Part shown: positions 44,338 through 49,515 of the stretch, one piece after another
How positions within the stretch are numbered: position 1 is the first letter of the stretch
How the letters are laid out: each line of letters opens with the position of its first letter
Source: Gaiellales bacterium
Lineage (GTDB): Bacteria > Actinomycetota > Thermoleophilia > Gaiellales > JAICJC01
Direction of reading: 5' to 3'
NCBI GenBank assembly: GCA_036403155.1
Contig: DASWRM010000079.1
Location: forward strand, 62,001-126,000
DNA length: 64,000 nt
Position numbers and translations under genes: made by a program
The notes under the pieces: model-generated
What the model saw: the letters and a program-made list of their open reading frames with translations, nothing else
Told to the model about the DNA's origin: nothing
Databases searched by the model: none

Positions 44338-45090
44338 TCAGGCGTCGACCGGCGCGGCGACCGCCACCGCGCCGAGCGTGGCCAGCACGTCGCGGATCTC
44401 GCCCGAGCGGCAGGTGAAGATCGGCGTGTCCCGCTCGGTGTAGCGACTCGCCTCGGTCTCGCGCAGCGTCATCATGAGATCGAGGAAGTCGCCGACGAAG
44501 TCGGTCTCGAAGGCCACCACGAACTCCTGGTCGTCGATCCCGAACGAGTACGTCGTGTTGATCTTCACGGTCGGAAACTGATGCCCGGTGGCGATGTGCT
44601 CGTTCATGATCCCCTGGCGCGCCGGCTTGCTCAGCTGGTACCAGGCACGGGTCTTGACCATCGGGTAGATCAGCAGGTACTTCGAGTCCGGGTTCCACAT
44701 GATGCGCCCGCGCTTGTGCATCGAGCGCCCCTCGCCCTTCACGTACTGCGAGCGCCTGGTCATCGACAGGTACGCGTACGGCGTGTCGAGGTATGCGCCG
44801 AGCGCCGTCGCGTGCAGTGCGGTTGCGAACTCTTGGAAGTCCTCGAGCCGCTCCGACACCTTCCAGAGCATGATGTCGGCGTCCGCACGGACGCCCACCA
44901 TCGTGTACGACCGGATCGGAAACCGCTCCGCGTGCTCGTCGACGACCGCGGCGAACTCGGCCAGCGCCGCCTCGCGCTCGGCTTCGGGCAGCTGCCGGAA
45001 GGCGCGGTCGAGCTTGTAGAACGAGAAGTGCACGAACTGGCGCTCCTCGCCGGCTGAGTTGTTTGCAGGGACGCCGTTCTGCTCGCTCAT
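44338..45090 (-). CDS. chdC: Coproheme decarboxylase (HemQ/ChdC), chlorite-dismutase-like
   Basis: The 250-residue product has the chlorite-dismutase-like fold of HemQ. The key region LLIYPMVKTRAWYQL holds the substrate-side Tyr and Lys, and NEHIATGHQFPTVKINTTYSFGIDDQEFVVAFETD holds the proximal His. It makes heme b by peroxide-dependent double decarboxylation of coproheme, the last step of the coproporphyrin-dependent route used by Actinobacteria and Firmicutes. The ATG at 45090 follows TACCAT on the minus strand by seven bases, a leaderless start. No other heme gene is adjacent. Confidence 0.92.
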   Translation of the reverse strand: MSEQNGVPANNSAGEERQFVHFSFYKLDRAFRQLPEAEREAALAEFAAVVDEHAERFPIRSYTMVGVRADADIMLWKVSERLEDFQEFATALHATALGAYLDTPYAYLSMTRRSQYVKGEGRSMHKRGRIMWNPDSKYLLIYPMVKTRAWYQLSKPARQGIMNEHIATGHQFPTVKINTTYSFGIDDQEFVVAFETDFVGDFLDLMMTLRETEASRYTERDTPIFTCRSGEIRDVLATLGAVAVAAPVDA

Positions 45091-45188: not shown

Positions 45189-45506
45189 ATGCAGCGAGGA
45201 CAGGCAAGCGTCGAGACGTCGATTCTGCTGCCGGCGCTGCTGATCGTCGGGCTGGCGTGCTGGCAGGCACTGCTCGTCGGCTGGACGTCGATCTCGGCAG
45301 AGCACGCGGCGCGCGCGGCCGCGCGTGCGAGACTCGTGGGAGACGACCCGCGCGCCGCCGCGTCCCGATCGCTTCCCGGCGCGATGCGGGACGGCCTTCG
45401 CGTCGTCGCCGGAGACGACACCGTCGTCGTCCGCGTGCGCGTCCCGGTGGTCGTCCCGGGGCTCGATCTCGAGCTCTCGGCCGATGCGCGACTGGCACGC
45501 CAGTGA
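45189..45506 (+). CDS. TadE-like pseudopilin, first gene of a pilus-type operon
   Basis: The 105-residue product begins MQRGQASVETSILLPALLIVGLACWQALLVGW, the GQ-x-S-VE cleavage-type leader and hydrophobic helix of TadE-like minor pilins, followed by an Ala-rich region and a strand-rich end (DTVVVRVRVPVVVPGLDLEL). The Tad system assembles Flp-type pili or secretion machinery. The ATG follows TAGCGT by seven bases (leaderless). Its stop overlaps the next gene as GTGA. Confidence 0.82.
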   Translation: MQRGQASVETSILLPALLIVGLACWQALLVGWTSISAEHAARAAARARLVGDDPRAAASRSLPGAMRDGLRVVAGDDTVVVRVRVPVVVPGLDLELSADARLARQ

Positions 45507-45799
45507 GGCGCGAGAACGGCCAGGCCAGCGTCGAGCTGGTTGCCTGCGCCGCCCTGCTGGCCCTCGTCGCCGTCGTGGCCGTGCAATGGCTTGCCGTTGT
45601 CCGCACCCGGATCGCGGCCGAACGGATCGCCGACCAGGCGGCCGTGCTCGCGGCCGAAGACCGGCCGATCCCAGCCGGGCTGCGTCGGGGCGCGCGGATC
45701 GAGCGCCACGGCGCTCGGCTCGTCGTCAGCGTCCGGCTGCCGTTTGCGCTTCCCGGTTTCCCTGCCGAGCAGGCGGCGAGCGCGGTGATGCCGCGGTGA
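45503..45799 (+). CDS. TadE-like pseudopilin, second gene
   Basis: The 98-residue product, from a GTG overlapping the previous stop, reads VRRENGQASVELVACAALLALVAVVAVQWLAVVRTRIAAERIADQAAVLAAED and again ends in a strand pair (GARLVVSVRLPFALPGF). It is a paralogue of the first gene with the same leader and overall plan. The stop overlaps the following GTG (GTGA), so all three genes are translationally coupled. Confidence 0.8.
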   Translation: MRRENGQASVELVACAALLALVAVVAVQWLAVVRTRIAAERIADQAAVLAAEDRPIPAGLRRGARIERHGARLVVSVRLPFALPGFPAEQAASAVMPR

Positions 45800-47613
45800 G
45801 GCAGCGAGGACAGGTCTCGGTGCCCGCGTGCGCGCTGCTCGTGGTGCTGATGCTGGCCGGCGCGCTGATCGGGTACCTGGGCGGTGTCGACCAGGCCGGC
45901 GCGAGCGTCCAGCGGGCGGCGGACATGGCGGCGCTTGCGGCCGGAAGGCGGCTGGCCGACGACCCCACGGCCTCTGCGGCCGATGTGCGGTCGGCCGCGG
46001 CCGGCTCGGCCGCTGCGAACGGCGCCCGGCTGGTCGCCGTCGACGTGATCGGCGATCCGGTGCCCGAAGCGGTCGAGGTGACCGTCGAGACCCGAGGGGG
46101 TGAGGCCGTGCGCGCACGCGCACGTGCCGCGGTGTCGTACGCGGCGACGCTGCCGAGCGGAACGTTCCGGCCGGTGGACCTGCATGGGCTGGGCGGGCGC
46201 GGAGCGGTGGTGGCCGCGGCCGCGGCGCAGGTGGGATGGCCGTATGTGTGGGGTGGCGAGAGCCGTGCCGACGGCGGGTTCGACTGCAGCGGTCTGGTCG
46301 ACTTCGCCTTCGGGGCGGCAGGGATGCCGCTGCCCGGCCGGCCGACCGCGGCCACGCTCTGGACGATGGCGCAGCCGATCGCCCCGGCCGAGCTCGAGCC
46401 GGGAGACCTCGTATTCGTCGGCGCGCCGTCCGGAGCGCCGCATCACGTCGGCATCTACGTCGGCGAGGGGACGGTGCTGTCTGCGCCGCACACCGGCGCG
46501 CGCGTTGGCTACTCGGCGCTTGCCGGCGGCGGATGGGACGGCTACGGCCGGCTGCTGCCCGCCGAGCCCGGCCTGCACGCCGACGTGGTCGACGCGGCTG
46601 CGCGGCGCGCCGGGGTCCCCGGGCACGTGGTAGCTGCCGAGCTGGCGCTGGGGCTTGCGGATGACCCGGCCGTGGCCGCGCGATCGCTGGCCGAGGCGAT
46701 GGCCGCCCATCCCGAGGGGCTGGAGGCGGCGGTGGCGGCCCAGCTGGGAGACCCGTCCGCAGCGGCACTCGTCCTGCGGCACGGCAGCGGGCCCGCGCTT
46801 CACCTCGAGGTGCATGTCCGTCTGGCTCCGACCGGCGCCGACTCCGAGGCCTCCGCCGCGGAGCGAGAGCCGCCGCGGGTTCCGGTCGGTGTCACCACGC
46901 CGAGGCGGCCGCAGGCCGGAGGATCCCTGCTCGACCATCTCAGCACGGCGATCAGCGTGGGCGAGCGCGCCGCGGAGGGGCTGGGCGAGCGAGGGCGGGC
47001 ATTCCCGCTGCAGGCGGTCGCCGGCATCAGCCATCTCTCTCGATTCGCCGTCACGGGGCTCGGGGCGCTGCTGCCGGATCCGGATTGGCGCGACGCGTTC
47101 AACCTCGCCGGCTCGGCGTGGGATGCGGTCAGCGCAGCAGCGGATCTCGCCGGCACCGCCGGAACCGCCGGGCTCGAGCTGGCCGGGGTCGGGCTGTGGG
47201 CGGCGCGCTTCAGCGCTGTCGGCGGGGCGCTGTCGGCCGGTCTGTTCGCGATGCAGGCGATCCATGCGCGACGCACCCGCGACCGGATCGGATACGGCAT
47301 GATGGCCGCCGGCAGCGTTGCGACCACCGCCGGGTTGGCGACCGCCGGCGGCTCGCTGATTGCGCTGGGCGCGACCGCGTCGGTCATCCCGCCCGTCGGG
47401 CTCGGGCTGATGGCGGCCGGGGCCGGCCTCTGTGTCGGCGGATATCTGGTTCGCCACCCCGAGTGGTGCCGTCGCGGGCTGCGCCTGGGCGGCGCGGTGC
47501 TCGACACGGCGTGGCGCGTGCAGACGGCTCCGGTGCGGGTCGCGGCCTCGGTCGGCGGCTCGGTCGTCGACGGCGCCCGATCGCTGGTGTCGTCGCTGCC
47601 GACGCCGTGGTAG
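45796..47613 (+). CDS. TadG-like pseudopilin fused to an NlpC/P60 peptidase and a hydrophobic C-terminal region
   Basis: The 605-residue product has three parts. Residues 1-120 begin MRQRGQVSVPACALLVVLMLAGALIGYLGG and resemble TadG/TadE-related pilins (AADMAALAAGRRLADD). Residues 135-255 are an NlpC/P60 endopeptidase with Cys164 (FDCSGLVDF), His217 (APHHVGIYVGEG) and His232 (APHTG), a complete peptidoglycan-cleaving triad. Residues 400-590 form long Gly- and Ala-rich hydrophobic helices (GYGMMAAGSVATTAGLATAGGSLIALG). The GTG start overlaps the upstream stop. A wall-opening enzyme carried on a pseudopilus is my inference. Confidence 0.85.
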   Translation: MRQRGQVSVPACALLVVLMLAGALIGYLGGVDQAGASVQRAADMAALAAGRRLADDPTASAADVRSAAAGSAAANGARLVAVDVIGDPVPEAVEVTVETRGGEAVRARARAAVSYAATLPSGTFRPVDLHGLGGRGAVVAAAAAQVGWPYVWGGESRADGGFDCSGLVDFAFGAAGMPLPGRPTAATLWTMAQPIAPAELEPGDLVFVGAPSGAPHHVGIYVGEGTVLSAPHTGARVGYSALAGGGWDGYGRLLPAEPGLHADVVDAAARRAGVPGHVVAAELALGLADDPAVAARSLAEAMAAHPEGLEAAVAAQLGDPSAAALVLRHGSGPALHLEVHVRLAPTGADSEASAAEREPPRVPVGVTTPRRPQAGGSLLDHLSTAISVGERAAEGLGERGRAFPLQAVAGISHLSRFAVTGLGALLPDPDWRDAFNLAGSAWDAVSAAADLAGTAGTAGLELAGVGLWAARFSAVGGALSAGLFAMQAIHARRTRDRIGYGMMAAGSVATTAGLATAGGSLIALGATASVIPPVGLGLMAAGAGLCVGGYLVRHPEWCRRGLRLGGAVLDTAWRVQTAPVRVAASVGGSVVDGARSLVSSLPTPW

Positions 47614-47655: not shown

Positions 47656-49515
47656 ATGCCCACGCTTGCCCGCAACGAGACGCTGGAGGCCCAGCTCAAG
47701 GCCCTGCCCGACCGCCCGGGTGTCTACCTGTTCCACGGCCGGGACGGGGAGGTGCTGTACGTCGGCAAGGCCAAGTCGATCCGCAAGCGCGTGCAGTCGT
47801 ACTTTCGCCGCGAGGCGTATGCGACGGTCAAGACCGCCGAGCTCGTCGACCGGATCGAAGAGATCGAGTTCGTCGGCGCCGGCAGCGAGCATGAGGCGCT
47901 GCTGCTCGAGCAGAACCTGATCAAGCGGCACCGGCCTCCGTTCAACATCCGGCTGCGCGACGACAAGTCGTATCCCTACATCGCGGTCACGATCGGAGAC
48001 GAGTACCCGCGCGTCATGTTCACGCGCGAGCGCCACCGGCGCGGGGTGCTCTACTTCGGGCCGTACTCGAGCGCGAAGAAGGTGCGCGAGACGCTGGACG
48101 TGCTGAACCGGGTGTTCCCGTACCGGCCCTGCGAGGGCCCTCGCCCGGGCAGGCGCTCCGGGGTGCCCTGCCTCGACCACCACATCGGGCGTTGCGCCGC
48201 GCCCTGCGTCGGCCTGATCTCGAAGGACGAGTACGCGACGGTGATCGAGAACGTCGTCGAGTTCCTGAGCGGACGCGTGCGGCCGCTGGAGCGGCGGCTG
48301 GAGGAGCAGATGAAGGGTGCCGCGGCGGCGCACGAGTACGAGGAGGCGGCGCGCTACCGCAACCGCCTCACCGCGGTGCGGCACCTGGCCGAGCGGCAGG
48401 TGGCCGACCACGTCGGATCGCAGACCGGCGACGTGCTGGCGGTTGCCGTATCGGACACGACTGCGAACGTCCAGTTGTTCCAGCTGCGTGACGGGCGGCT
48501 GGCCGACCGGCGCAGCTTCTACCTGGACAACGCCGGGGGCGAGAGCGAGTCGGACGTCCTCTGGGGCTTCGCGGTCGAGTACTACGGCGGGCAGGTCGCG
48601 ATCCCACCGTCGGTGATCGTGCCCGGTGGCTTCGAGGACGCGGATCTGCTCGCCATGTTCCTGACCGAGCGGCGCGGCGCCACCGTCGAGGTGCGGGCCG
48701 CGCAGCGCGGCGAGAAGCGGCGGCTCGTGGAGCTGGCGCGGCGGAACGCCGAGATGGCGCTCGAGCATGACCGGCTGGTGGCGCAGCGGACGCGGGCGCG
48801 GCGGGTGGAGGCGCTGGAGGAGCTGCGCGAGCGGCTGAACCTGGAGTCGCTCCCCGTCCGGATCGAATGCTTCGATATCTCGAACCTGGGTGAGTCGAAC
48901 CCGGTCGCGTCGATGGTCGTATTCGAGGACGCGGTCGCGAAGCGGTCGGACTACCGCAAGTTCGGGATCCGCCACGACGGTGGACAGGACGACTTCGCGA
49001 GCATGGCCGAGGTGGTCGGCCGCCGCTTCGCACGGATGTCGAACCCGACGGCCAACGAGTTCGACGCGAGCTTCTCCACGTGCCCGAACCTCGTCGTGAT
49101 CGACGGCGGGAAGGGACAGCTCGGCGCAGCGCTCAAGGCGATGGCGGAGCACGACCTCCCGCGCGTCGCGGTGATCGCGCTGGCAAAGCAGGAGGAGGAG
49201 GTGTACCTGCCCGGGCGTGCCGAGCCGGTGATCCTCGAGCGGGGGTCGCCGGGCCTGCAGCTGCTGCAGCGGATCCGCGACGAGGCGCACCGGTTCGCGG
49301 TCGGCTTCCACCGCCAGCGGCGTGCGCGCTCGGCGGTCGACTCGATCTTCGACGGCCTGCCCGGAGTCGGCCCGGCACGGCGCAAGGTGCTGATGCAGCA
49401 CTTCCGGACGGCCGGGGCACTCACGTCGGCGTCCCGGGAGCAGCTGGAGGCGGTGCCGGGCCTGCCGCCGAAGGTCGGCCGCCAGATCCACGAGGCACTG
49501 CACAAGACGGGCTGA
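47656..49515 (+). CDS. uvrC: UvrABC excinuclease subunit C
   Basis: The 619-residue product has the full UvrC plan: the GIY-YIG nuclease (DRPGVYLFHGRDGEVLYVGKAKSIRKRVQSYF), a Cys-containing linker (YRPCEGPRPGRRSGVPCLDHHIGRCAAPC), the UVR motif (HEYEEAARYRNRL), the RNase-H-like nuclease (ECFDISNLGESNPVASMVVFEDAVAKRSDYRKF and VIDGGKGQLGAA) and C-terminal HhH motifs (LPGVGPARRKVLMQHF). It makes both incisions in nucleotide excision repair. The ATG follows TACGAT by eight bases. Confidence 0.97.
   Translation: MPTLARNETLEAQLKALPDRPGVYLFHGRDGEVLYVGKAKSIRKRVQSYFRREAYATVKTAELVDRIEEIEFVGAGSEHEALLLEQNLIKRHRPPFNIRLRDDKSYPYIAVTIGDEYPRVMFTRERHRRGVLYFGPYSSAKKVRETLDVLNRVFPYRPCEGPRPGRRSGVPCLDHHIGRCAAPCVGLISKDEYATVIENVVEFLSGRVRPLERRLEEQMKGAAAAHEYEEAARYRNRLTAVRHLAERQVADHVGSQTGDVLAVAVSDTTANVQLFQLRDGRLADRRSFYLDNAGGESESDVLWGFAVEYYGGQVAIPPSVIVPGGFEDADLLAMFLTERRGATVEVRAAQRGEKRRLVELARRNAEMALEHDRLVAQRTRARRVEALEELRERLNLESLPVRIECFDISNLGESNPVASMVVFEDAVAKRSDYRKFGIRHDGGQDDFASMAEVVGRRFARMSNPTANEFDASFSTCPNLVVIDGGKGQLGAALKAMAEHDLPRVAVIALAKQEEEVYLPGRAEPVILERGSPGLQLLQRIRDEAHRFAVGFHRQRRARSAVDSIFDGLPGVGPARRKVLMQHFRTAGALTSASREQLEAVPGLPPKVGRQIHEALHKTG

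Follow-up and report, generated by a model that had tools for sequence, protein, structure and literature searches.

In the window, by which we mean the whole 64-kb stretch of DNA analyzed, the last gene of a coupled three-gene cluster (the triplet, 45189-47613) encodes a TadG-type pilin into which an NlpC/P60 domain is built, and this fusion probably serves as a terminal or tip pilin, opening or engaging peptidoglycan so that a pilus can pass the thick wall. Sequence comparisons further indicate that the fusion of a pilin to a hydrolase arose independently at least three times, TadG::NlpC twice and pilin::CHAP once.

Two 4-bp GTGA start/stop overlaps couple the three ORFs of the triplet, and the leader of each (G/QASVE, G/QASVE and G/QVSVP) is followed by one hydrophobic helix, as the earlier note had described from the letters alone. 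Its assignment of the leaders and helices to the TadE/TadG type was borne out by the match of PF07811 to gene 1 and of TIGR03816 to gene 3. The TadE-type first gene, with its class III leader (G/xxxxE), also matched NF041390 (TadE_Rv3655c) in the profile search at 1.2e-8, under the cut-off of that model. The second gene, which gave weak matches, occupies the same place in G001-G004, the four other genomes of the family. Glu+5 is absent from the leader of the fusion and likewise from all TadG::NlpC relatives aligned. The triplet comprises three co-encoded minor pilins, the biggest of which bears a distal domain, as in Kil/TadG tip complexes. It is flanked by hemQ on one side and uvrC on the other.

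Table 1. Positions of the triplet, its neighbors, the parts of the fusion protein and the pilin::CHAP fusions of a related family (window coordinates unless a locus is named; the slash in leaders follows the Gly).
Feature	Position	Strand	Description
HemQ-like gene	44338-45090	-	divergent to triplet; named from sequence
TadE-type minor pilin	45189..45506	+	105 aa, leader MQRG/QASVE; PF07811 2.6e-9, over cut-off
Second TadE-like minor pilin	45503..45799	+	98 aa, leader G/QASVE; weak matches: TIGR03816 2.8e-4, PF07811 0.04
Fusion protein	45796..47613	+	605 aa: TadG-type pilin, NlpC/P60, helical domain, helical C-terminus
Pilin domain, residues 1-118	45796..46149	+	predicted helix 9-55, helix 61-74 and three strands; TIGR03816 2e-10
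NlpC/P60 domain, residues 134-255	46195..46560	+	PF00877 1.8e-21; fold match to SagA NlpC
Cys164 codon	46285..46287	+	nucleophile; invariant in 52/52 NlpC sequences
His217 codon	46444..46446	+	second catalytic residue; invariant in 52/52 NlpC sequences
Ser229 codon	46480..46482	+	third triad position (His+12); S/S/V/A/V in five f1 fusions
Small helical domain, residues 262-345	46579..46830	+	predicted, ending in a strand; pLDDT 74-95 (AlphaFold2)
Helical C-terminal region, residues 404-575	47005..47520	+	predicted; one TM-like segment ~533-552
uvrC	47656-49515	+	beyond triplet; named from sequence
Pilin::CHAP fusions, family f2	L207:10394-11032, L209:3851-4495, L206:6826-7491, L208:7028-7693, L210:6506-7204		last tad operon gene

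Contig C79, to which the window belongs, is part of a 3.2 Mb assembly (G000), whose relatives in our collection are Thermoleophilia MAGs. Five genomes, G000-G004, were available for its family (f1), and in each of them the same triplet recurs in the interval from hemQ to uvrC; in three, a carbonic-anhydrase-like gene on the opposite strand precedes uvrC. The fusions of the family are 49-66% identical to that of the window. The dN/dS of the fusion is about 0.1-0.7 in every segment, highest in the linkers and lowest in the NlpC segment (about 0.1-0.16), which is the most constrained part of the protein. The triplet is under purifying selection in f1. A frame error or assembly artefact, feared in the earlier note should the fusion prove unique to one assembly, was rejected on the presence of the same protein in five genomes and on these ratios.

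The pilin domain of the fusion matched the Rv3654c family model TIGR03816 over nearly its full length (residues 3-111, profile positions 1-107 of 109, E 2e-10), with a score of 40.8 bits that lies under the curated cut-off of 50.95. PF13400 (TadG/TadE-like) did not match the window fusion and matched weakly in 2/5 f1 members (best 0.0026). In the AlphaFold2 model, built from 52 aligned rows (mean pLDDT 80; a five-sequence input had given a poor model), the pLDDT of this domain is 82-97 from residue 11 and 60 for residues 1-10. The NlpC_P60 profile (PF00877) covers residues 147-248 with 76.5 bits against a cut-off of 23 (E 1.8e-21), and the predicted domain superimposes on the NlpC domain of SagA (6b8c) with a TMt of 0.88 and an rmsd of 1.8. 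The approximately 350 residues that follow it gave no family match in the profile search. Residues 262-345 had no Pfam match above chance, and their interpretation as a degenerate transglycosylase was rejected for want of Pfam support. The C-terminus, described earlier as a long Gly-Ala-rich hydrophobic region, instead consists mostly of amphipathic helices with a single clearly membrane-like segment near 533-552. The structure prediction proposed for it showed a helical region, and a fold search of the PDB with the fusion model retrieved the NlpC domain only, with no convincing match for the C-terminus. Nor was this region convincingly matched to a known toxin or phage part.

The third residue of the NlpC triad lies at His+12, as in RipA (C383/H432/E444), RipB (C152/H201/E213) and RipC (C300/H348/H360) (PMC6628586, PMC12067865). 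The earlier note had proposed a complete enzyme with Cys164, His217 and His232. The domain, Cys164 and His217 stand, together with Tyr150 and the FDCSG motif, which are equally invariant; a Cys-His-His triad via His232 was rejected, since His232 lies three residues past the canonical position 229, which is a Ser. This position is H, E, N, Q or D in nearly all other sequences of the 52-sequence alignment. Because it is Ser in the window and Ser, Val or Ala across f1, peptidase activity of the window copy is doubtful. The f1 domain may act as a dyad enzyme, may use His232 as a substitute, or may only bind the wall. A secreted-looking NlpC paralogue, sister to the NlpC domain of the fusion, is present in f1 (L098:7311-8732 on G000:C42, and L106-L109) and also misses the third residue (V or A), which implies that the loss is older than the fusion or common to both proteins.

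As the earlier note had stated, there is no Tad ATPase or platform gene within the 64-kb window, and in the whole-genome search the T2SSE and T2SSF matches all lay on other contigs. Its suggestion that the machine might be encoded elsewhere is supported. Among four TadA loci in G000, a compact one (L095, C45 about 62.9-69.6 kb) encodes a response regulator, a histidine kinase, an unnamed protein, a SAF/RcpC-like and an Ssd-like protein, TadA, TadB, TadC and a Flp-like pilin, and contains no TadE or TadG. PF00437 and PF00482 scored over cut-off there (G000:C45:66935-69497) and at three further loci. Candidate Flp-like ORFs after TadC were recognized by leader and helix at L095:9555 (no Pfam match) and L102:10040, and a single prepilin peptidase was found (PF01478, G000:C67:63720). 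Every one of the five f1 genomes has a single TadA of the compact clade. The triplet and the tad machine of f1 are on different contigs, and the minor pilins are thus not in the machine locus. TadE- and TadG-like genes accompany the TadA genes of C10 and C56/C50, and a TadE-like gene that of C20. TIGR03819 did not separate the compact TadA from the CpaF-type TadAs, all scores being under cut-off, and was rejected as a marker. comEC was found in 11/12 fusion-bearing genomes; its presence is compatible with DNA uptake and too widespread to discriminate.

Several features of these loci were observed in passing. The three further Tad loci of G000 (L096, L097, L099, L100; C10, C20, C50, C56), each with a CpaF-type TadA and its own pilins, are an unusual number for 3.2 Mb, and C56 and C50 look like halves of one locus. 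In the compact loci, a protein of ~240-256 aa is encoded between the histidine kinase and the RcpC-like gene (L095:4532-5302, L101:4706-5470, L102:5120-5833, L104:3871-4593); where read, it has a CxxC...CxxC zinc-ribbon-like end, and it has no Pfam match. In L125 (G148), a similar protein is encoded divergently to a neighboring Rv3654c-like pilin.

The search for the fusion architecture in Actinomycetota, suggested in the earlier note, recovered pilin-hydrolase fusions inside tad operons. In two families outside the class of the window, f32 (six genomes) and f52 (one genome), these operons end in TadE followed by a TadG::NlpC of about 275-280 aa. The full operon, with TadZ, TadA, TadB, TadC and an A24 peptidase, was read at two loci, L164 and L165, and some of the others are truncated by contig ends; Flp is present in f32, with an unrelated opposite-strand gene between TadC and Flp. 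The f32 and f52 fusions (two tested) exceeded the cut-offs of both PF13400 and PF00877, and their Cys-His-His triad is intact. In f2, a family from the same order as the window, the orthologous compact tad operon ends in a pilin::CHAP fusion at all five loci read, with PF05257 over cut-off in each. The WCADF and TIEGN motifs of these proteins are invariant, and Glu+5 is kept, so a tip position is not required of them. The f2 fusions, like those of f32/f52, keep complete catalytic sites. Two enzyme families have been recruited to pilins independently.

In a further family, f4, the orthologous TadA-TadBC genes adjoin uvrC directly in L211 and lie one gene off in L212, so that uvrC is a neighbor both of the f4 machine and of the f1 triplet. 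The f1-compact, f2 and f4 sequences formed one clade of the TadA tree (0.99); co-evolution of the f1 TadA with that of f32/f52 was not seen, the two being in separate clades. In the NlpC tree, the f1 fusion and the f1 secreted paralogue formed one group (1.00) that lay outside the f32/f52 clade (0.98), so the f1 and f32/f52 TadG::NlpC fusions are independent. A class-wide search with TIGR03816 gave ordinary TadG-like proteins, and no fusions, at the other loci read. CHAP matches outside f2 were, where read, no pilin fusions, and a plasmid search gave generic NlpC enzymes only.

Among the CHAP-matching proteins, two are encoded beside flagellin (L222:1459-2064 and L225:1471-2082; same class, f10), as if each were a dedicated flagellar wall enzyme, and no flagellin was seen in the short stretch read around relatives in L217, L218, L221, L223 and L226. 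Near the f2 compact tad cluster we also noticed a small Flp-like pilin (L207:63-263, +) and a 235-aa protein with a GQATVE leader (L207:1020-1727, -), whose C-terminus has no assigned identity.

The best explanation, which we hold at slightly better than even, is that the triplet is a detached minor-pilin (tip) module of the compact Tad/Flp machine, with the NlpC domain opening or engaging the wall. The prepilin peptidase would cut after the Gly of each leader, and TadE, the TadE-like protein and TadG::NlpC would assemble at the membrane into the complex that initiates, or sits at the tip of, a short Flp (type IVc) pilus driven by TadA, TadB and TadC of the compact locus. The TadG subunit, without Glu+5, would cap the complex and place its NlpC domain against the peptidoglycan, so that the wall would be opened or engaged at the very point of pilus passage. 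We infer co-assembly with the C45 machine, the tip position, catalysis and wall passage from several lines. The pairing with C45 is suggested by the single-copy state of the compact TadA in all five genomes, by the absence of TadE/TadG from its locus, by orthology and by the uvrC neighborhood; it is tempered by the lack of linkage in f1 and by the three other TadA loci and other TadG-like ORFs of the genome. The missing Glu+5 points to a tip cap, since type 4 filament tip caps also lack it (PMC10191384), and this placement is weakened by the absence of TadE/F from sheared pili of Micrococcus luteus, for which a basal position was favored by the authors (PMC4322843). The catalytic part of the model is weakened by the loss of the third residue in five f1 fusions and in the secreted paralogue, given that replacement of Glu444 by Ala abolished the activity of RipA, in which all three triad residues are needed (PMC6628586).

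This loss is also what would favor a non-cutting NlpC domain in f1, one that binds peptidoglycan and anchors the base of the pilus or guides it through the wall; it would resemble mycobacterial RipD, an NlpC protein whose peptidase activity was lost (PMC12067865). We regard such a binding role as unlikely: Cys164, His217, Tyr150 and FDCSG are invariant, selection is strongest on the NlpC segment, and the catalytic sites of the f32/f52 and f2 fusions are complete. An inactive NlpC domain would be expected to lose the Cys and His too, as in RipD. Myxococcus Tad pili with TadG-like tips kill prey (PMC12075869), and the long helical C-terminus with its TM-like segment is found in f1 only, so that the fusion could be a contact-dependent weapon, i.e. 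a tip-borne wall enzyme, perhaps with a membrane-active C-terminus, turned by a Kil-like Tad pilus against neighbors. However, no candidate immunity gene was seen next to the triplet, the f32/f52 and f2 versions are without an extra toxin-like part, and the best toxin-family match of the C-terminus (E 0.02) was far under cut-off, which makes this a quite improbable reading.

It is very improbable that the TadG-like N-terminus is a mere membrane anchor for an ordinary wall-remodelling enzyme unrelated to a pilus. Although no tad machine is linked to the triplet in f1, and NlpC proteins are abundant in f1 genomes, two other minor pilins are coupled to the fusion in 5/5 genomes, the match to the Rv3654c type is full-length and the fusions of f32/f52 and f2 are encoded within tad operons. 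An ordinary anchor, which the earlier note had envisaged as fatal to its reading, is thus disfavored, and its proposal of an enzyme built into a Tad-type subunit, with the machine encoded elsewhere, is supported by the Rv3654c/TadG domain, the C45 locus and the in-operon fusions. The three independent pilin-hydrolase fusions argue for function, probably that of a terminal or tip pilin acting on the wall; DNA uptake, as in M. luteus, would be a plausible purpose.

The way in which a pilus gets past the thick monoderm wall has been described as unknown, and a pilus-associated peptidoglycan hydrolase has been suggested (PMC13192262). No description of a pilin fused to a peptidoglycan hydrolase was found in the literature searched, which took in few subscription journals, in line with the earlier remark that no such system was known. 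In the fusions described here, a Tad pilin and a hydrolase domain form a single covalent chain. At least three lineages arrived at this independently, with two enzyme families, which suggests that the recurrent fusion in several groups of soil-type Actinomycetota is a direct answer to how the pilus crosses the thick wall. The idea can be tested directly by point mutation in one gene, and it links wall passage to the Rv3654c/TadG-type protein, of uncertain role, that stands last in actinobacterial Tad loci. That the Tad pili of several Actinomycetota are wall-piercing filaments, joining hydrolysis and extrusion in one polypeptide and invented at least three times, is a more tentative view, to which we give somewhat less than an even chance.

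Among known systems, RipA, RipB and RipC share the fold and the Cys-His dyad of the window NlpC domain and, unlike it, are not fused to a pilin and keep the third triad residue that is lost across f1. EssH of the Staphylococcus T7SSb is likewise a dedicated CHAP wall hydrolase of a trans-wall machine in a monoderm (PMC13059805), but it is a separate protein of another machine. Closer in function is LytF of Streptococcus sanguinis, a CHAP cysteine peptidase that helps the competence pilus out of the thick-walled cell and whose active Cys is required for efficient transformation (PMC13192262); LytF, however, is a separate secreted enzyme of the Com pilus, whereas here the enzyme domain lies within a pilin. 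Kil/TadG tips also comprise three minor pilins, the largest of which (TadG/KilN) bears a variable distal C-terminal domain and is proposed as the tip (PMC12075869), but they belong to Gram-negative cells and have no reported peptidoglycan-hydrolase domain. The actinobacterial Tad/Flp loci resemble the present system in their Ssd/TadA/B/C/Flp content, the unlinked prepilin peptidase and comEC in the genome, and both Rv3654c-Rv3660c of M. tuberculosis and tad-1/tad-2 of M. luteus have TadE (Rv3655c-like) and then an Rv3654c-like protein as last genes. The window differs from them in the NlpC/P60 domain and long C-terminus of its Rv3654c-like protein and in the separation of the triplet from the machine, a split that has a precedent in M. 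luteus, where Flp exposure and DNA uptake depend on each of two distant tad loci (PMC4322843).
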